Origin: a virus
IMG/VR virus record: IMGVR_UViG_3300007276_000130
Span: 1 to 35,776 of that record
Strand: one strand, 5' to 3'
Length of the DNA stretch: 35,776 nucleotides
The notes under the pieces were generated by a model. It was not told where the DNA came from. It searched no databases and worked only from the letters and a program-made list of their open reading frames with translations. This document shows, in pieces, positions 1,819 to 24,826 of the stretch. Both the position numbers and the translations under genes were made by a program. Numbering within the stretch: the stretch's first letter is position 1; each line of letters begins with the position of its first letter.

Positions 1819-2751
1819 ATGGAACAAGCAAACAACATCCACCAACTGGCCCAAGGCCCAACCGTAAACGCACCCAGCATCAGTTCATCTTCTGTGCTGG
1901 TCGAGCTAAGGATCTCAACGTGGACTGCGCGTAAGCTCGACAAGTCAGCATCGCGTAAGGTCGCAGCGGATAACGGCGCGTCAGCCAAGGCCGGTAACTA
2001 CAACAAGAACCTGCTCGCCGGTTGTACTGAACTGGAAGACCTAAAGAAGTTTGTAGGTAACGCACGCAACACCCACTACGCAATGACCCTGCCGTGGTCT
2101 GACATGGGGCTACGTCTGGTGCCGACATCTCAATACTTCGACTACCAGAACACCATGACAGATCTGGAGCAAGAGTTCCGCCGGTTGTACCAACTGTTCG
2201 AGGATGCGTACCAGTGGCGTACATCCACCGCGATGGCAGAACTAGGTAACATGTTTAGTCACGATGACTACCCGCCGGTTGACGAGCTGCGTAGAAAGTT
2301 CGGATGGAATCTGGCTGTTCAACCACTGCCCGAGGCCGGTGACTTCCGACTCGACATACCCAACGAACAGCAAGAAGTTCTCAAGCAACAGTATGACTCG
2401 TTCTACCGTGGGGCTATCGAGTCTGCGATGGATGACATCTGGGCGCGGTTACACAAGAACCTAGAGACTGTGCTGCGTCAGCTATCCCCGAAAGATGAGC
2501 TAGATGCCAAGGGTAATCAGAAATATAACAAGTTATACGATAGCGTCTTCGACACGTCGCTGGAGCTGATACGTATGATGCGTGACTTCAACCTGACTGG
2601 TGACACCCAGATGACTGCGATTGCAGACCAGCTAGAGGATGCGCTGTACGGCGTGAACACCGATGCGCTCAAGAACAGCGAGACGCTACGTCTGGACAAA
2701 CAGCAGCAGGTCAAAGACATCATCAGCAAACTACCGTCCTTGGATCTGTAA
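1819..2751 (+). CDS. Helical protein, DUF3150-like, partner of the AAA/VWA pair
   Basis: ATG at 1819 was chosen because AAGGAG lies six bases upstream; the open frame begins earlier but would overlap the previous gene. The 310-aa product is mostly helical, with a central stretch about residues 90-230 (MTLPWSDMGLRLVP, then helices with EFRRLYQLFEDAYQW, then FGWNL). This arrangement recalls DUF3150 proteins, which on plasmids and integrative elements sit next to MoxR-type ATPases and CobT/VWA proteins. The same order is seen here. The family call rests on remembered pattern and context and is moderate. Function is unknown; it may be a substrate or adaptor of the ATPase. Confidence 0.65.
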   Translation: MEQANNIHQLAQGPTVNAPSISSSSVLVELRISTWTARKLDKSASRKVAADNGASAKAGNYNKNLLAGCTELEDLKKFVGNARNTHYAMTLPWSDMGLRLVPTSQYFDYQNTMTDLEQEFRRLYQLFEDAYQWRTSTAMAELGNMFSHDDYPPVDELRRKFGWNLAVQPLPEAGDFRLDIPNEQQEVLKQQYDSFYRGAIESAMDDIWARLHKNLETVLRQLSPKDELDAKGNQKYNKLYDSVFDTSLELIRMMRDFNLTGDTQMTAIADQLEDALYGVNTDALKNSETLRLDKQQQVKDIISKLPSLDL

Positions 2752-2772
2752 TCAGATCTCTAGGTTTAACGT

Positions 2773-2813
2773 GGTACGCCCTGTATAATAGTAGGACACA
2801 ACAGGGCGATACC
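2773..2813. promoter_or_regulatory. Inverted repeat enclosing a TATAAT box
   Basis: CGCCCTGT (2777-2784) and ACAGGGCG (2801-2808) form an 8-bp inverted repeat that extends, with one extra base, to GGTA and ATACC on the outside. TATAAT lies at 2784-2789 inside it, but no good -35 box was found at the right distance. It may be a second promoter with an overlapping operator, or only a hairpin between the genes ending at 2751 and starting at 2887. Confidence 0.4.
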
Positions 2814-2845
2814 GCCTACCATCAACCAACGCTAACAACCACAAA

Positions 2846-2863
2846 GTTATAGGAACCTATAAC
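2846..2863. promoter_or_regulatory. Palindromic site copy 4 (operator-like)
   Basis: GTTATAGG, centre AA, CCTATAAC, ending 23 bases before the ATG at 2887 and followed by an AAAGGAG ribosome binding site. With the copies at 700, 1138 and 169 it defines a phage-specific element placed at nearly constant distance from three early gene starts. Confidence 0.75.
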
Positions 2864-2886
2864 AAACACAACGAAAGGAGATAGCC

Positions 2887-3990
2887 ATGAGCTATGCACA
2901 ACAAACTTACGCACTGAACCTCGACCAAGCCGAATCGCTGATCCTAGCAGTCGGTGACAATCGGACGGTTCTACTTCAAGGCCACATGGGTACAGGTAAG
3001 TCATCACTACTTACCACACTTGCAGCAGCAAGACCGGATCATGTGCCATGCTACTTCGACTGCACGACCAAGGACTTGGGTGACATCACGATACCCAACA
3101 TCGCCAAGCTGGATGACGGCACTGGCTATGTGACGTACCTGACCAACGAGGAATTGGGTGCCCACAACAACAAGCCGATTATCCTGATGATTGACGAGTT
3201 CGGTAAGGCCAACCCCGCAGTCAAGAATGCCCTGTTACGTCTGATCCTCGAACGCAAGATCGGCAGCTACACGCTGCACCCCGACTCTATCGTGTTCGCC
3301 ACGACTAACCTTGGCAGCGAGGGTGTGGGTGATCTGTTACCTGCACATGCCCGCAACCGTATCACCGTGGTCGAGACTAAGAAGCCCACCGCTATGGAGT
3401 GGGTCGAGTGGGGCATCAGCAACGGTGTCGATCACACAATACTGGGCTGGGCCAAAGAAACTCCCGAGGTCATGCAAGACTTCCGCGATGTACCGAATCC
3501 AGATGACAACCAGTACATCTTTCATCCCAAAGCTGTGGATCGGGCTGCGTTCTGCACGCCACGTTCACTACACGCAGCGAGTGACATCTTGCAACGCCGT
3601 GAGGGGCTAGATGATGACACGTTACAGGCAGCACTCATTGGTACCATCGGTACCCGAGCCGCCGCAGACTTCATGTCATTCCTCAAGCTGGCTGACCAGC
3701 TACCGTCATTGGAGTCAATCAAGAACGATCCTGACAATGCCACGGTGCCAACATCCCAAGCTGCTGTCTGCATGGTGGTGTTCAAAGCACTGTCAGCATT
3801 GGAGCGTGACTGGGCCGATGCGTGGATGACATACATCAACCGGCTGGACAAGGAAGCCCAAGGTCTGTTCGCCAACGGCGTTCGATCCAGCAAATACAAC
3901 AAGACCAAGCAGTCCATGATTATGCAGAACAAGCTGTTTACTCAATGGGCTATGGACAACAACTACATGTTCGCAGCGGACAAGGTATAA
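2887..3990 (+). CDS. MoxR/CobS-like AAA+ ATPase
   Basis: 367 aa. Walker A is GHMGTGKSS (G32 to S39), Walker B is LMIDE (100-104) and the sensor-1 Asn is N141 in FATTN; an arginine-rich HARNR follows as a candidate Arg finger. MoxR-type ATPases act as ring-shaped chaperones that remodel or insert cofactors into a partner, usually a VWA-domain protein. The very next gene encodes a VWA protein nine bases away, so they probably work together. The region after residue 190 is helical lid plus a C-terminal extension of unknown role. Start at 2887 has AAAGGAG upstream. Similar CobS-like genes are known in other phages, where their function is unsettled. Confidence 0.9.
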   Translation: MSYAQQTYALNLDQAESLILAVGDNRTVLLQGHMGTGKSSLLTTLAAARPDHVPCYFDCTTKDLGDITIPNIAKLDDGTGYVTYLTNEELGAHNNKPIILMIDEFGKANPAVKNALLRLILERKIGSYTLHPDSIVFATTNLGSEGVGDLLPAHARNRITVVETKKPTAMEWVEWGISNGVDHTILGWAKETPEVMQDFRDVPNPDDNQYIFHPKAVDRAAFCTPRSLHAASDILQRREGLDDDTLQAALIGTIGTRAAADFMSFLKLADQLPSLESIKNDPDNATVPTSQAAVCMVVFKALSALERDWADAWMTYINRLDKEAQGLFANGVRSSKYNKTKQSMIMQNKLFTQWAMDNNYMFAADKV

Positions 3991-3999
3991 GGAGATAAC

Positions 4000-5259
4000 A
4001 TGTTAGCACTAAACCAACAACTGACCGCCGAGCAGCGGATCACCAAAGCAGTGATAGATATTACTGCTCACCCACGGTACATGGCCTTGGCTGGTGTACT
4101 CATGGTGGGCAACAAGACTGTCAGCGATGACGTACCGACTGCATGTACCAACGGACGTGACGAGATATATGGCCGAGCGTTCGTTGATTCCCTGACCGAT
4201 GCCGAGCTTCGCTTCTTGATACTGCATGAGTGCTATCACAAGATGTACCGGCACCTGATAACGTGGAAACACTTGCACGACAAGAACCACAACCTCGCTA
4301 ATGCGTCATGCGACTACAACATCAATGGCAAGCTGGTCGATGAGAACCGAGAGGACGGCTTCGCCGCTATGCCACGCGATGCGGACGGCAACCAGATCGG
4401 GCTATACGATGAGCAGTTCCGCAAGCCCGATGGGTCATGGTCTGATACTGCCGTGATCTTCAAGGCATTGGATGATGGTACGCAGGAACCACCCAAAGGT
4501 GGTGGCGGCAACCCAGCCCCACCTAACGGCAAGGGCGATAGTGACGAGCCACGGGGTTTCGATGACCATGACTGGGAGGGCGCAGATAACCTGTCAGACG
4601 ATGAGGTCAAAGATCTTGAGAAAGAGATCGACGTAGCGATACGTCAGGGCAGCATGATAGCCAGTAAGTCAGGTGTTACGGGCAACCGTCTACTCGATGA
4701 GCTTATGCAATTGCAGGTCGATTGGCGTGAGGTACTGCGCGAGTTCATCCAGACAACCTGTACTGGCAACGACTACTCCACATGGAAACGTCCCAACCGT
4801 CGATACATTGGTGCCGGTGTCTATCTGCCCAGCGGTATCAGCGAGAAGGTCGATGAGCTTGTGATTGCTATTGATACGTCAGGGTCTATCCCCGACTCCG
4901 ATCTGGCTGTGTTCCTGTCAGAAGTTCAGTCGATCTGCACTACGGTCAAGCCCGACAAGGTTCGCTTACTGTACTGGGGTCACGAGGTTGTGGGTGACGA
5001 GTCATACGCTACGCACGAGCTAGACACGCTGGCCCAATCTACCAGACCTAAAGGTGGCGGCGGTACCGATGTTGAGTGCGTGGTCGAGTACATGCAGCGA
5101 CATCAGATCAAGCCACAAGCAACGATCATCTTCACCGATGGCTACCTGTTCGGTGACTGGGGTACATGGGACTGCCCAACTCTGTGGTGTGTGATCGACA
5201 ACCAACACGCGACTCCCAACAACGGCAAGGTCGTGCACATTCAGTCGAGCGACATGTGA
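4000..5259 (+). CDS. Metallopeptidase-like / VWA-domain protein (CobT-like partner)
   Basis: 419 aa. The N-terminal part carries HECYH (76-80) in ILHECYHKMYRH, a zinc-metallopeptidase-type motif. Residues about 150-225 are a Gly/Pro/acidic linker. The C-terminal VWA-like domain has a complete MIDAS set: D292-T-S294-G-S296, T356-D357 in GGGGTD, and D380 in FTDG. This two-domain build matches the DUF2201/VWA-like predicted metallopeptidases that pair with MoxR ATPases. It probably binds a divalent metal through MIDAS and docks on the ATPase of the preceding gene; whether HECYH is catalytic is not known. AAGGAG precedes the ATG. Confidence 0.9.
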   Translation: MLALNQQLTAEQRITKAVIDITAHPRYMALAGVLMVGNKTVSDDVPTACTNGRDEIYGRAFVDSLTDAELRFLILHECYHKMYRHLITWKHLHDKNHNLANASCDYNINGKLVDENREDGFAAMPRDADGNQIGLYDEQFRKPDGSWSDTAVIFKALDDGTQEPPKGGGGNPAPPNGKGDSDEPRGFDDHDWEGADNLSDDEVKDLEKEIDVAIRQGSMIASKSGVTGNRLLDELMQLQVDWREVLREFIQTTCTGNDYSTWKRPNRRYIGAGVYLPSGISEKVDELVIAIDTSGSIPDSDLAVFLSEVQSICTTVKPDKVRLLYWGHEVVGDESYATHELDTLAQSTRPKGGGGTDVECVVEYMQRHQIKPQATIIFTDGYLFGDWGTWDCPTLWCVIDNQHATPNNGKVVHIQSSDM

Positions 5260-18994: not shown

Positions 18995-19038
18995 CCCCCT
19001 TACCGTAACCACCCCTTCTTGCGGTAAGGGGGTTTTTT
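18995..19038 (+). terminator. Strong Rho-independent terminator at the convergent junction
   Basis: A perfect 11-bp stem, CCCCCTTACCG (18995-19005) with CGGTAAGGGGG (19022-19032), has a 16-nt loop and is followed by six T (19033-19038). It ends the + strand replication operon. The stop of the converging - strand gene is at 19037-19039, so that gene ends at the foot of the hairpin. There is no T-run on the - strand side. Confidence 0.9.
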
Positions 19039-22000
19039 ACAAGAACCCTTCACCCGAATCCACCGTACGCTTCATGTATGGCGATAGCGTTGTACCGTTG
19101 TGCATCTCCGCAGAACGAGTCTCGTGCCCACGTATTGACCTATCAATAGTGTCACCTGTTATACGTTTCTGGCGATCTCGGCGCACGGCACTGGACTTGT
19201 TGAACTCTCGCATAGATCGCCGTGCATCACGCATACCTTCTCTGTCACCGAATCTCTTGGCAACGTAGTAACGTCTCAGCAGGTCACGGCGTTTAGCACT
19301 CGCAGCTATGTCTAGGCGTTTAGCTGTAGATGTCTCGTCCGCTTGTCTGGTGTAATCGACGGGCGGAAACCCTAGTAGCTGCGTAGCCAAATCACCGGCT
19401 GTGAGATCATCGTAGATAGGATCACCGCGCCGAGTCAGAATGCCCTCATCCCTCGGGTACCTGATAACAGCTTTATAAGCATTACGTACAGCGCCCGGCA
19501 TTAGGTCTTCTATACCACGCTCTATCTCGCCTTCACGTAGTTTGTCTATGCCATCTCTACCTCGTGAGTAGATGCTCCATGCAGGGCCACCAAACAGGTG
19601 AGCAATCTCTTCTTCTGGCGATGGATCACTGTTGAATCTGTCGGCTTCAAATAGCAGGTCGGTCAGCTTAACGCGCTGCGATACATCAACCCCAGTTATT
19701 TCAGACAGAGCGCCCTTGAATAGCACTTCACTGTCTAGGTACTGCCGTAGCATGGTGTCGGTGTCTTCTTCGTAGTCTTCTCTAAACATGTCAATAAGCA
19801 TGGAGACTGCACCGTACAACGGTAGACCCTGTACCCCAGCGAAGAACAGAGCAGATAAATGTACACCGGCAAGCTGTTTCAGAGCCTCATTACGTAGCTC
19901 TCTGCTCTTAGCGTCATTGCCCGGAAAAAAGTTCTCTATAGCTTGTCTACCAGACTTAAACATCGTGTAGTACATCTGTATGCCGTACGCTTTATACATC
20001 AGCGCAATACGACCTAAACTCTCACGGGCGTACCGTGGGCCAGTTTCTAGTGTGGCACCACCGTTGATTAGCTGCGTCTCACGTACAGCTTCTTCTGCGG
20101 CTTTCTTCTTGTCACCATCAAACTTCTTTAGTGCGAGTTTATACGCTGCCACCATCGTAACTTGACGATTCATTACTTCTGCTTCATGGAACATAAGAGC
20201 CGAAGCGTTTGTCACCGCGTCCATCTTAGACATCTTACGCCCCGCCTGACTCGTGCTGAGTGTGTCGGCAATGAACGACGAGTTAAGCTGCCCCCGCCTA
20301 GAAGCAAGCTCCATCAACGGTAGAAGGTCTTTCAATTCCTTTGTTTGCGCTGCATCGAGGTCTAGGTCTTTACGTACTTCGTAAGTGACTCGGCCATCTT
20401 TGTCGCGGGAGAACGTATAGTAGTTATCCAGCGATGGTAATGCCTTGTCTTTGAGGGCTTCTCTCGCTGCGTTGAGGTCACCTTTACGTAGCGCTTCTCT
20501 TACAGACCGTGGCGTTCTTGCGTCCCCGACTAAAGTAGCTATGTCCTTGTTCATTGGAGAACCCATAAACAACTTAGTAGCACCGCTTAGAGCGGTTCGT
20601 GTGGCTCCGAACCCATACTTACCTGCCAGCATCGGGTATGCGAACAACGGTATCTGCGACAAGTTTACCAGCGCAGACGAGGCGTTGAAGCCGATAGTCC
20701 ACATGAATGCCATACGGTTTGCGTTCTTAGCGAAACTGTCCAGTGGCGGATTGACGGCAAATCTAGCGCGGTCTTTTACCTCTTCGATTTCTGGGCTGTT
20801 CGCATCTGCCATTTTAGGGTTGGCTTCAAGCATCTCTTGTACGGCGTTGTCGATTAGCCGTGAGTTCTTAATGCGCTCTACCTGCCGTGCCAGATCAAAA
20901 GCCTTCGTACGTGCCGCTTCCACAGCATCTACATCATAACCTTCAGTGCCCTTACGTCGAAGCAGTGACTTAGCGAAAGAAGACTCTGGCAGGTACTCAA
21001 TAAACAAACGTGTTATCTGTTCCTGAACCTCTGGGTCTACTTTGTTCACCTTCATAATGCCCAGTATGCTGGAGACAAAAGAACCAGAGGGCGCGTCCTC
21101 GTAGGAGGCTTTGTCACTAGGGCTGAACGTCGATACTCCGTAACCTTCTGCTTCGTAGGCTTCCGCTGCCCTGAACCGTTCCGCAGCGTTCTCGTATGCA
21201 AACACGGCAGAGTCCGCGCCTTCCTTGGGGTTCTTCACAGACAGGAAGTACGTGCCGGTACGAGTCAGCGGGAAGTATGGCTCCAGCTTAGTCGCCTCTA
21301 ACATCTTAGCGTATAGACCGTTCTTGAGGTTGGTCTTCGCTTGTTCTGCTATGGGCAGTCCGTCAATACGATTTTGCAGCGTGTCATTAAGTTGGTCGTA
21401 CTGATCTTTATATAGCTTACGCAAAGCGGCGTAGTTCTTCCTACCCTCGGCACCAACCATCTTGCTGTTGTAGACCGCCCGTAGTTCTTTGTAGCGGTCT
21501 ATTTTTAGCTGCTTAGTGCCGTCTACGGGCTGGTTGCCGTACCGTTTTTGTGCTTGCTGTGGCGTTAGCTCTGGATCTACTTGGTCAACGGTACTGTCGT
21601 AGATCAAGTTATTCCACGCCTTAATCGTTTCTCCAGACTGTTTAGCAGCCCACTCTCGTATAGGTTGTAGGTTGTTTCTGACCGCTTGCTCTGCGGTAGT
21701 TAGGCCACCACGTTGGTTTTCTATAGCAGCGAAAACCTTATTAACACCGACTACACCTGCCCTTTCAAGCTCTACTTCGACGGCGTTGTTAGGTAAGAGA
21801 CCAAGTATTTTGCGTTTTAGTCCGGTGTTTTTCTGCCCTGCTGTGAGTGCACCGTACTCGCCAACTATTCTTTCTTTTGCACGCTCTATCGGCCCTTTAG
21901 GTAGGGCGTCCTTGAGTCCTTCCTCTACTCTACGTACGCCAGCAGGGTCGGTCATAGATGCTAAGAGAGGAGCACCACGGTGCTTGGCGGCAGGTGCCAG

Positions 22001-24826
22001 TATGTCTTCAATTAACTGTTGGGCTTCACGCTGTGCAGTACCACGTTCTTTGCCCAGCCCGAGGAAGTTAGATACCACGCGGATAAATTCTTGCCAGACA
22101 CTAAGCGGCCTACCGTCTGGGTTGATTCGAGCTAGCTCACCTTGGAAGGTGGGGTTAGTAAAGGCTTCAGCGACAAACTCTGCTACGTTCTTAGACCCAT
22201 AAGAGTTACGTAGGTACTCTTTGCTAGCCTCATGCAGCTTTATCAGCTTCTTAGTAGTCGGGTGTGACGGGTTCTTCAGAGTGCTAATCGTTGCAGCGTG
22301 CGCCATCTCGTGCAGTAGGACATACACATCTGTGTAGTCTTTATTCAGTACGATTGTGTTGTCTGCGGTTATGAACCGTCCGTCAACCTGTTTACCGTCT
22401 ACTGTACCCAACTGGCTTGGGGGCACGGTCATTATCTTGGTGTCACCAGTGAGTTTAGCCAGACGGCCAGCTACTCGCTTGATGAACTTATCGTCTGACT
22501 TGTTAGATAGCTCTAGTAAGGCTCGACGTAGTTCGTTGTTACGTACCGCACGTTTTACAGTGTCAGGCAGTGAAGCATCCAACACCTCGGTGTAGTCTCT
22601 TGGAGGTGCGTTGAGGACTTGTTCGGATGCGACACGCATAGCGTCTGCTTTACTGAGACCTTCTTCTTTTACGAGCCTGTCTCTTTCTGCACGACGTTCA
22701 GCTAAAAGACTTTGCTTGTCGGCAGTTTTTTCCTCTGGGGCACGTAGATCTACGTCCGCCGTAGGCTCTTCTACAGTAGGTTCTGCCGGGGCGGGTGTAG
22801 GTTCCTTCGTCAAAACCTCTTTTACGGTAGCTGGTGTGGCTGCGGCAGTGGCGGACATAGCCCGCTCTGCACGGCGTTGGGCGTCCACAGTCTCTTGAGG
22901 TATGACTTGCGTATCTACATCGGCAAGCTGTTCGTTGGCTTTTATACCTTCTTCAGTAACTTTCTGTAGCTTCTTCTCAGCACGAGCCAACTTACGTTGG
23001 TTAGCCTGCGTTGGTTTTACTGTTGCAGCTTCTTCGGCTTTAGCTACTTCAGTTCGGGCTGCGTTAGCCTTGGCTACTGCCGAAGTAACCTTTCGGGCTA
23101 GTGCACCACGCTGTTTTCTCGTTCCAGAAACAGGTCGTCCAACGCCTCTTCCAGCATCTCCCACTGGTTCTCCGACAAGTGCAGCAGGTTCCACGGTATC
23201 CGCACGTCTTGTAGGGACTCCCACGCCTCGTAGATCAGCTTCATCGCCTGTTCTACTTCTTGCTGCGACAGGTTCTCTTTTGCGCGGGGTAGGTAGATCA
23301 CGTTGCTCACTAGGTACTCCTTCTAGCAATCGGGTAACGCCACGTCGAACCTTTTGAGATTTTAGACGGTTAGCTTCGTTAGTTAGCTCAACCCGGACTT
23401 CTGGGTCATCTAAGTCTTTACCTATAACACGTCTGCGTATAGCAGCATTCGGCGCAAACCCAGCGGTAGTGAGGTCTTCTTCTGTGACAGGACGCGATTC
23501 GGGTGTTGGTTCTGCTTCTGGCGCTACTGCGGCTCCTTCTGCTACAGCAAGTTCAGTCGGAAATAGGTCAGGCTGTTCTCGTTGAGCAATCTCAGCACGT
23601 TCTCTACCTGTCCGCGCTTCGTCAGATACTGGCTCTTCAGTGATCTGTTGTTCTCTATCACGTAAGTTGGTTCGGTCTAAGGCTTCTTGTCTACCTAACA
23701 CATCGCCTTCAGGCGTTACAGCTAACGTCTCACCAGCAATAGTTTCACCTTCTGGTGCAGGTAGACCTCGCAACTGTGGCCCAACACGTTCTGGCTCTAG
23801 CCCCGGCAGTGATATTTGGTCAGGGCTTACTTCGGCTGTACGTTCTTCCTCAAACAGCCTGTCTCGTTCTTCCTGATCTATGTCGTCTATGACTTCATCT
23901 ATCTCAGGAGTACGCTCCTCTGCGTCGTCAAACAGTTCAAGTTGCCCTTCGGCTTCAGCTTCTTCAACAGCATCACCAATGGTCTTACCGGCTCTGCGTG
24001 GGGCGAACAGGTCAACAAGACCCTGTAAAATAGCACCGGCTCCAGCGCCTAATGCAGCTTCTTCTGCGGTACCGCCAAACGTCTCAGCAGCAGCGTTGTA
24101 TTCTTGCTCGTTAAGATTTTGCAGTATGTTGGATGCAGCTTCCTGTGCACCCTCAAACCCACCTGTCACACCCGCGCTGTAGATACGTTCGCCAATGGTT
24201 TCGACCTTCTCAGGCGGTATCTTGTCAACTAGCTTGTTTAGCGTAGGTAGATCAGCGAACTTAACTACTTTTGCAACGGGGAGTATGTCTAGCAAACCGA
24301 TTACTGTGCCCCGTACGGTGGCTTCACCACGTTTTTGCTCTGTAGTATCAGCGGCACGAGCACGCTCACTCGCCTCACCAGCACCGGCAGCACCGGCAGC
24401 TAACGCACCAAGACCCAAAGCCGCAGCACCGGGGGCACCAGCTATACCAGCGGCAACAGGTATAGAAGCAAGGCCAGCAACGGAACCAAGCGCGGAGCTT
24501 AGTTTGTAGGTAATAGATTCTGAGTCACCGCCTTCGGGACGGAAAGACTCCGCAATAGACTGAATACGCTCGCGTGCAGCTAGTTCGCTTTCTTCTTCCA
24601 GTGGCGCAGCGAGACCGAGTGCAGCCATCTCACCTACACCGACAACACCCGCACCGAATCCAGAGGTAATGTCCTCGAATATGCCGGTTTCTCGTGGTGC
24701 GCTGGTAGGGAGAGGGGTAGTACGCCCTACTAAAACACCCCTTAGCGCGTCTACAGCTTCTGTATCCCCAGCAGCTAGAGCGTTGCGGTACGCCCGATAA
24801 ACTTTCTCTCTTGGTACTACTGGCAT
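19037..24826 (-). CDS. Giant polyvalent-type virion protein with HEMAH metallopeptidase motif (1929 aa)
   Basis: Order of parts: helical start (YRAYRNALAAGDTEAVDALRG); Ala/Gly-rich, membrane-like segments about residues 100-155; an acidic, Pro-rich linker to about 780; a gluzincin-type motif HEMAH (839-843) with E883/E887 in EFVAEAF as third-ligand candidates; a long helical region; hydrophobic segments (FMWTIGFNASSALVNLSQIP and on; HLSALFFAGVQGLPLYGAVS); and a basic C terminus. This resembles phage large polyvalent or internal virion proteins that are packed in the head and injected with the DNA. The peptidase could act on head proteins or the host envelope. ATG at 24826 has only a weak ribosome binding site. 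Another gene is nested at 23098-23310. Confidence 0.88.
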   Translation of the reverse strand: MPVVPREKVYRAYRNALAAGDTEAVDALRGVLVGRTTPLPTSAPRETGIFEDITSGFGAGVVGVGEMAALGLAAPLEEESELAARERIQSIAESFRPEGGDSESITYKLSSALGSVAGLASIPVAAGIAGAPGAAALGLGALAAGAAGAGEASERARAADTTEQKRGEATVRGTVIGLLDILPVAKVVKFADLPTLNKLVDKIPPEKVETIGERIYSAGVTGGFEGAQEAASNILQNLNEQEYNAAAETFGGTAEEAALGAGAGAILQGLVDLFAPRRAGKTIGDAVEEAEAEGQLELFDDAEERTPEIDEVIDDIDQEERDRLFEEERTAEVSPDQISLPGLEPERVGPQLRGLPAPEGETIAGETLAVTPEGDVLGRQEALDRTNLRDREQQITEEPVSDEARTGRERAEIAQREQPDLFPTELAVAEGAAVAPEAEPTPESRPVTEEDLTTAGFAPNAAIRRRVIGKDLDDPEVRVELTNEANRLKSQKVRRGVTRLLEGVPSEQRDLPTPRKREPVAARSRTGDEADLRGVGVPTRRADTVEPAALVGEPVGDAGRGVGRPVSGTRKQRGALARKVTSAVAKANAARTEVAKAEEAATVKPTQANQRKLARAEKKLQKVTEEGIKANEQLADVDTQVIPQETVDAQRRAERAMSATAAATPATVKEVLTKEPTPAPAEPTVEEPTADVDLRAPEEKTADKQSLLAERRAERDRLVKEEGLSKADAMRVASEQVLNAPPRDYTEVLDASLPDTVKRAVRNNELRRALLELSNKSDDKFIKRVAGRLAKLTGDTKIMTVPPSQLGTVDGKQVDGRFITADNTIVLNKDYTDVYVLLHEMAHAATISTLKNPSHPTTKKLIKLHEASKEYLRNSYGSKNVAEFVAEAFTNPTFQGELARINPDGRPLSVWQEFIRVVSNFLGLGKERGTAQREAQQLIEDILAPAAKHRGAPLLASMTDPAGVRRVEEGLKDALPKGPIERAKERIVGEYGALTAGQKNTGLKRKILGLLPNNAVEVELERAGVVGVNKVFAAIENQRGGLTTAEQAVRNNLQPIREWAAKQSGETIKAWNNLIYDSTVDQVDPELTPQQAQKRYGNQPVDGTKQLKIDRYKELRAVYNSKMVGAEGRKNYAALRKLYKDQYDQLNDTLQNRIDGLPIAEQAKTNLKNGLYAKMLEATKLEPYFPLTRTGTYFLSVKNPKEGADSAVFAYENAAERFRAAEAYEAEGYGVSTFSPSDKASYEDAPSGSFVSSILGIMKVNKVDPEVQEQITRLFIEYLPESSFAKSLLRRKGTEGYDVDAVEAARTKAFDLARQVERIKNSRLIDNAVQEMLEANPKMADANSPEIEEVKDRARFAVNPPLDSFAKNANRMAFMWTIGFNASSALVNLSQIPLFAYPMLAGKYGFGATRTALSGATKLFMGSPMNKDIATLVGDARTPRSVREALRKGDLNAAREALKDKALPSLDNYYTFSRDKDGRVTYEVRKDLDLDAAQTKELKDLLPLMELASRRGQLNSSFIADTLSTSQAGRKMSKMDAVTNASALMFHEAEVMNRQVTMVAAYKLALKKFDGDKKKAAEEAVRETQLINGGATLETGPRYARESLGRIALMYKAYGIQMYYTMFKSGRQAIENFFPGNDAKSRELRNEALKQLAGVHLSALFFAGVQGLPLYGAVSMLIDMFREDYEEDTDTMLRQYLDSEVLFKGALSEITGVDVSQRVKLTDLLFEADRFNSDPSPEEEIAHLFGGPAWSIYSRGRDGIDKLREGEIERGIEDLMPGAVRNAYKAVIRYPRDEGILTRRGDPIYDDLTAGDLATQLLGFPPVDYTRQADETSTAKRLDIAASAKRRDLLRRYYVAKRFGDREGMRDARRSMREFNKSSAVRRDRQKRITGDTIDRSIRGHETRSAEMHNGTTLSPYMKRTVDSGEGFL
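23098..23310 (-). CDS. Nested gene in an alternative frame of the giant virion gene (70 aa)
   Basis: GTG at 23310 is preceded on the - strand by AGAAGGAG, six bases before the start, which is the best ribosome binding site in the - strand half. The product begins MSNVIYLPRAKENLSQQ, is acidic and amphipathic-helical (LSENQWEMLEEALDDLFLER) and reads as real protein. Over the same bases the host gene encodes a low-complexity linker (about residues 506-577, RKREPVAARSRTGDEADLRG and on). The codon phase differs by one. So this looks like overprinting, or a small gene kept inside a lengthened one. No family name is known to me. Confidence 0.78.
   Translation of the reverse strand: MSNVIYLPRAKENLSQQEVEQAMKLIYEAWESLQDVRIPWNLLHLSENQWEMLEEALDDLFLERENSVVH

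Follow-up and report, generated by a model that had tools for sequence, protein, structure and literature searches.

A DUF3150-like, MoxR ATPase and metallopeptidase-VWA gene triad and its phage-private palindromes in an uncultured virus

The three adjacent genes and their families

Using the IMG/VR virus record IMGVR_UViG_3300007276_000130, a complete record of 35,776 bases (hereafter the window) which is itself only a fragment of a phage genome, we identified three well-spaced open reading frames (ORFs) on the same strand, each with its own ribosome-binding site. The first, D, encodes a DUF3150-like protein of 310 amino acids (aa) and forms the third component of the triad (1819-2751, + strand); the second, M, encodes a MoxR-like AAA+ (AAA_5) ATPase of 367 aa (2887-3990, +); and the third, V, encodes a DUF2201 protein of 419 aa with an N-terminal metallopeptidase-like domain and a C-terminal VWA domain (4000-5259, +). 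The ORFs, their Pfam and PHROG matches and HHalign comparisons all bear out the original prediction for this DNA, that three genes of these kinds lie side by side.

Both M and V were assigned to families above the relevant thresholds, V by a wide margin. M scored 29.5 bits against Pfam AAA_5 (cut-off 22) and matched phrog_1297, annotated as "ATPase", with E = 4e-50. Its Walker A motif (GHMGTGKS, approximately 2980-3003, +) and Walker B motif (LMIDEF, approximately 3178-3201, +) are conserved, as are residues G35, G37 and K38, D103 and E104, N141, R158, and R226, the last three of which are invariant. V scored 79.2 bits against PF13203, the DUF2201_N metallopeptidase domain (cut-off 23.2), and 67.5 bits against PF09967, the VWA-like domain of DUF2201 (cut-off 26.4), and matched phrog_1314 with E = 1.4e-80. 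Its HExxHxxxxH motif, HECYHKMYRH (H76-H85), is encoded at 4225-4254 (+), and its metal ion-dependent adhesion site (MIDAS) at 4873-5139 (+), with DTSGS at 4873-4887, T356 at 5065-5067 and D380 at 5137-5139. In a comparison of 108 sequences, little or no variation was seen at H76, E77, H80, H85, N101 and D105, or at D292, S294, S296, T356 and D380 of the MIDAS. The Walker, HExxHxxxxH and MIDAS residues are likewise invariant or near-invariant across N4, phage G, plasmids and the phage group of the window, in an alignment where the Vequintavirus sequence fits poorly at its end; the predicted complement of ATPase motifs, and the predicted pairing of HECYH with a full MIDAS, are both present and conserved in relatives. 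Both phrog_1314 and many RefSeq records of N4-like phages label the family of gp25, the N4 counterpart of V, as "HNH endonuclease", despite its metallopeptidase-like and VWA domains; these Pfam domains rule out that name for the V family.

Searched directly against Pfam, NCBIfam, PHROG and PADLOC, the window D protein gave no usable match, and it scored below the cut-off of the Pfam DUF3150 family (PF11348), so we name it DUF3150-like rather than filing it as a DUF3150 member. It is related to proteins of Burkholderiales plasmids, some of which are annotated as DUF3150 (tblastn, 1e-23 to 1e-30), and 6 of 12 members of the D family match PF11348 (best 1.6e-6). In addition, when profiles of D were compared by HHalign with those of genuine Pseudomonadota DUF3150 proteins, they aligned over approximately 150 residues at a probability of 91.6-95.9% (E 8e-7 to 6e-9). 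By this profile comparison the 310-aa protein is a relative of DUF3150, and the first of the findings that would have counted against the original prediction, an unrelated 310-aa protein, did not come about. Where the fetched stretch shows it, the Pseudomonadota DUF3150 genes adjoin genes for a MoxR-like ATPase and/or a HExxH protein; judged from this gene context, pairs of MoxR and HExxH/VWA genes seem to be regularly accompanied by DUF3150. Our literature search returned no paper on DUF3150 or on the combination of DUF3150, DUF2201 and MoxR, and a search of the PDB by sequence returned no credible relative.

Linkage of the triad and its known counterparts

In our linkage survey, viral contigs were searched with D and V, and each locus was scanned with profiles of D, M and V. 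All 59 V-anchored related viral loci with more than 1.4 kb of upstream sequence contain M, and all 47 of those with more than 3.6 kb contain both D and M, counts that include a few contigs more than once, as closely related copies. The related contigs are mostly fragments, and our surveys of plasmids and cellular genomes are samples. These findings confirm that D, M and V are a conserved unit, inherited jointly throughout a large group of uncultured phages, and they dispose of the possibility that homologs of the three genes never occur together, which would have counted against the original prediction.

The order of the three genes differs between groups. It is D-M-V in the window, M-V-D in another phage clade (L026, L028-L030, L032 and L034), and M-D-V, with small genes in between, in MinM2, a cyanophage that has been cultured. 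Cassettes on Burkholderiales plasmids (L004-L006 and L168-L170) also unite genes of these three kinds and differ in having the order M-D-V; the prediction that the phage repeats a plasmid arrangement is right as to the trio and wrong as to its order. They also occur together at PF11348 loci in Pseudomonadota, which differ in that the HExxH protein is more distant (HHalign 54%). Contigs of cellular genome bins (L125, L126 and L130) carry D together with M and/or V. On a Burkholderia cenocepacia plasmid, IS21 transposase genes (814-2933 of that locus) lie between M and V, in the expected place of D. In Escherichia phage APECc02, the V homolog, annotated as "putative anti-sigma factor", is encoded on the other strand from the MoxR gene, approximately 3.7 kb away.

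What is new here is the constant third gene beside M and V in the phage group of the window, since the M-V pair itself is an already known phage module. The AAA+ ATPase gp24 and the vWFA protein gp25 of N4 are core genes of N4-like phages with no function assigned (PMC7650795, PMC4193335, PMC2784036). As adjacent genes belonging to phrog_1297 and phrog_1314, M and V of the window fall within this gp24-gp25 module of the Schitoviridae, and they share its motifs and its location in a middle or replication region. The N4-like phages differ from the group of the window in that a DUF3150-like partner is undetectable in five N4-like genomes, and in that the N4-like loci checked have no palindrome family of the kind described below. 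M and V without a detectable D are also found in phage G, SCTP-2, phiFa, a Vequintavirus and the Synechocystis plasmid pSYSA. Group 2.2 jumbo phages likewise carry a MoxR ATPase with a vWA protein that has an N-terminal metallopeptidase domain, for which a role in virion assembly has been proposed (PMC7824862); there the genes form a pair, whereas here they form a trio in a replication-side block. The original prediction regarded such genes as unexplained in a lytic-type phage, a view that does not stand for M and V, given their presence as a core pair in N4-like phages and in jumbo phages, and the constant D partner is best described as a variant of that known module. The N4 pair has stood for years on the core list without a function, and a constant subunit shared with plasmids gives a handle on it.

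Pairs of a MoxR ring and a VWA co-factor include RavA-ViaA, CbbQ-CbbO, NorQ-NorD and CobS-CobT. MoxR-vWA ternary systems add a third component to the ring and co-factor (PMC7159879), and differ from the triad in that this component comes from VMAP, iSTAND, FtsH or beta-propeller systems. The bpMoxR model, a marker of one of the four ternary conflict systems, gave the window M only 13.2 bits against a cut-off of 27, and the Pfam and PHROG matches of the neighbouring genes suggested no VMAP, iSTAND, FtsH or variable effectors, for which no dedicated search was made.

Private palindromes and a candidate regulator

The window contains four copies of the palindrome GTTATAGGnnCCTATAAC, starting at 171, 702, 1138 and 2846. 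Copy 1 (GTTATAGGCTCCTATAAC, 171-188) lies after a terminator-like hairpin at 43-62; copy 2 (702-719) lies 28 nucleotides (nt) upstream of an early gene encoding a 127-aa protein with Pfam and PHROG matches to PF23790 (Kyano_Gp96) and phrog_554 (748-1131, +); copy 3 (1138-1155) lies 22 nt upstream of a gene encoding a HAD phosphatase of the polynucleotide kinase-phosphatase type (PF25109, phrog_415; 1178-1792, +), which is directly upstream of D and present in some relatives, not all; and copy 4 (2846-2863) lies in the gap that separates D from M, 23 nt before the start codon of M, with a TATAAT hexamer approximately 55 nt upstream and no good -35 box in the window. The original prediction had noted two operator-like sites around the triad; such sites are real, but there are four of them, and their meaning had been missed. 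We counted palindromes with arms of 7 or more in 65 non-redundant related loci and in shuffles of them, and 39 of the 65 contain at least three copies of one palindrome, whereas shuffled loci never contain more than one, so these palindromes are not due to chance.

The sequence of the palindrome varies with phage type (the most frequent half-sites number 21, and certain of these differ only slightly from others), and its position is constant across types, typically 10-35 nt before a start codon and beside the Shine-Dalgarno sequence. Most relatives carry one and the same phage-private palindrome ahead of both D and M, and some carry it ahead of V as well. Several relatives have a consensus sigma-70 promoter upstream of M; where the palindrome falls between this promoter and M, as it does in L017, it is downstream of the expected start of transcription. 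In four long contigs (62-69 kb), palindromes are found only in the early/replication block, where they lead D, M, V, a VRR-NUC-like gene and a SNF2-type helicase gene. As had been predicted, the triad itself looks from its position to lie in an early block. In MinM2, eleven copies of GGTTCAGnCTGAACC, the palindrome of that phage, were counted over the 27 kb that we read, ten of them in the early block, which makes the idea of private palindromes testable in a real, cultured phage.

Comparison of relatives showed that the gene tracking palindrome type is the first gene of the early block, situated between the first two palindrome copies. Among pairs of loci with D at least 70% identical, first-gene products are 40-94% identical where the palindromes match (19 pairs) and 2-34% identical where they differ (29 pairs); the ranges do not overlap, and many pairs share members and so are not independent. 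For example, L022 and L008, and likewise L019 and L020, are approximately 94-98% identical in most aligned blocks, with the first gene and every palindrome replaced; the palindrome of L022 is type A (GTTATAGG) and that of L008 is type B (TTTGTGTAT). In the window, the candidate regulator gene is cut by the start of the record and keeps only its final 10 codons and stop (LLAAFRASLS*, 1-33, +). Their translation is identical to the C-terminus of the type A first-gene protein of L022 and L014, as the palindrome of the window predicts, and the window thus fits the rule of covariation. One locus, L018:7960, runs counter to the rule, having one type A palindrome while its other palindromes and its first-gene protein are type B. 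We also considered D as the specificity factor that binds the palindrome and rejected it, since L008 D is 97% identical to window D and its palindrome is completely different.

Many first-gene proteins are recognisably related across palindrome types. Those tested against Pfam and PHROG gave no credible match, two of them gave none against 50,697 phage records, and in some loci the first gene was not found by the simple rule that we used. We infer that the first-gene protein is dimeric, binds the palindrome and regulates the early block. More broadly, we lean slightly towards the view that these phages have a fast-switching and so far undescribed control system, in which a DNA-binding first-gene protein of a new family would act on a type-private palindrome before early genes including D, M and V, with the protein and all of its sites exchanged together between near-identical integrase-negative phages, an arrangement that would make early control specific to the type and might exclude other phages of that type. 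If confirmed, such a system would represent a previously unknown means by which a lytic-type phage schedules early gene expression, and one would then ask why such phages need type-specific control at all. The lytic type named in the original prediction agrees with our search of 14 related contigs (36-69 kb, possibly incomplete), none of which yielded a PF00589 integrase; by this gene content a temperate lifestyle is not indicated, though lysogeny may follow another route.

A further likeness is to the stoperators of cluster A mycobacteriophages, which are many genome copies of one short site bound by an immunity repressor of diverging specificity (PMC6550527, PMC9283540). Both systems combine many copies of one short site with a phage-encoded protein, here a candidate, of diverging specificity. 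The system here differs in that its sites are perfect palindromes limited to the early block, no integrase was detected, and the candidate protein gave no match to any family searched.

Weighing against DNA operators is the possibility that the palindromes act as RNA hairpins in 5′ leaders, serving to control translation or to process mRNA. They immediately precede the Shine-Dalgarno sequence, in many cases separating tightly spaced cistrons that have no promoter, and could fold. Such hairpins are nevertheless improbable, in our judgement, as the arms hardly differ between copies within a phage and only their centre varies, the spacer in several types measures 0-2 nt, which is too short for an RNA loop unless inner pairs open, some copies have no gene after them, and the arm sequence switches together with one protein gene. 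Other candidates were rejected: only types such as that of the window resemble -10 boxes; the copies read have no T-run behind them, as terminators would; and hairpin promoters of the N4 type, used by a virion RNA polymerase, do not agree with arms that are identical in sequence within a phage, nor was such a polymerase found (the window proteins of 1929 and 2528 aa gave no match to a virion RNA polymerase family, the record being a fragment).

Possible role of the triad and other features of the window

We propose that D, M and V form a MoxR-VWA remodelling complex, made early, controlled through the palindromes and acting in replication or establishment, an explanation which, taken as a whole, we regard as evenly balanced between right and wrong. 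By analogy with known MoxR-VWA families, M would be an ATP-driven AAA+ ring; V would bind M and grip the target by its MIDAS, and its zincin-like domain could cut the target in most members; and D, as an accessory or adaptor subunit, would define the target or the assembly. The dimeric first-gene protein, bound to the palindrome, would determine when and how strongly the whole early block, with the triad in it, is expressed. The likeliest site of action would be genome replication or establishment rather than the virion, because helicase and polymerase genes lie near M and V in several N4-like phages, because palindromes are common to the triad and the helicase gene, and because the triad occurs on plasmids. 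For example, in Presley, SBP1, KPP21 and EcP1, M and V lie 1-3 genes ahead of the helicase gene with DNA polymerase close behind, the KPP21 helicase being unannotated and assigned by position. Candidate targets would be the replication complex of the phage itself, or a host protein that obstructs replication.

Several findings weigh against this proposal. A D homolog was sought in the whole genomes of eight phages, including N4-like phages, phage G, SCTP-2 and phiFa, and none was found; this search gave no sign of a hidden homolog in N4-like phages or phage G, and D is thus not generally needed for M and V to function. On several Burkholderiales plasmids the triad lies directly upstream of type IV secretion genes, which would fit a role in assembly. 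Finally, two plasmid V proteins (from P. dioscoreae and Variovorax WDL1) have lost HExxH while the MIDAS and all three genes of the trio were kept; cutting is therefore dispensable in some members, and gripping seems the more basic activity. This last finding favours a view of V as a MIDAS scaffold only, with a structural metallopeptidase domain, which we consider unlikely since the H, E, H, H and D residues are kept in all other proteins checked, from N4 to phage G to pSYSA.

We also weighed a virion assembly or maturation chaperone-protease, in which M and V would refold and cut structural proteins. This was proposed for the jumbo-phage pair by analogy with the MoxR-VWA system of Acidianus two-tailed virus (PMC7824862), and in roseophage RPP1 four virion proteins are encoded near the gp24 and gp25 homologs (PMC4193335); in the window, the very large proteins encoded on the opposite strand (1929 and >2528 aa) may need processing. 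The same three genes are, however, found on plasmids, which make no virions, and 20 of the 44 triad plasmids that we surveyed are predicted to be non-mobilizable, which argues against a purely structural role. In addition, the triad lies in the replication-side block and has its palindromes in common with replication genes, not with the large genes on the opposite strand, and gp24 and gp25 of N4 are middle genes (PMC4193335). A virion role for the triad therefore appears doubtful.

The original prediction had suggested a host target such as polymerase, a defence complex or an envelope protein, for which we found no direct support. A complex that pulls apart or cleaves host RNA polymerase, a nuclease or a defence complex would suit the early position, the conserved zincin motif, and the presence of these genes in unrelated phages and in conjugative plasmids, which share the problem of entering a host. 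We nonetheless hold host takeover or counter-defence to be rather unlikely: D and V have no match among the defence-related families of PADLOC and M has only a trivial P-loop match, the motifs are conserved and not fast-evolving over very different hosts, and M-V pairs occur in ordinary-looking cellular contigs, such as those of Marinobacter.

The window also has further repeated elements. In a long stretch without genes that precedes its first complete early gene, direct repeats of TAATGTTACGTTT (201-445) are iteron-like and possibly mark a replication origin; relatives carry akin repeats that are spelled otherwise (TAATGTTCC...). An element GCCGTTGCGTTGCG / GACGTAGCGTTGCG is present in two copies at 96-155, near a GATACCAGTTCC-like sequence, and in many relatives similar elements go with palindromes that have no gene behind them. 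The 1929-aa protein (19037-24826, - strand) resembles, in its C-terminal part, giant phage proteins that include the DarB-like antirestriction family phrog_10089.

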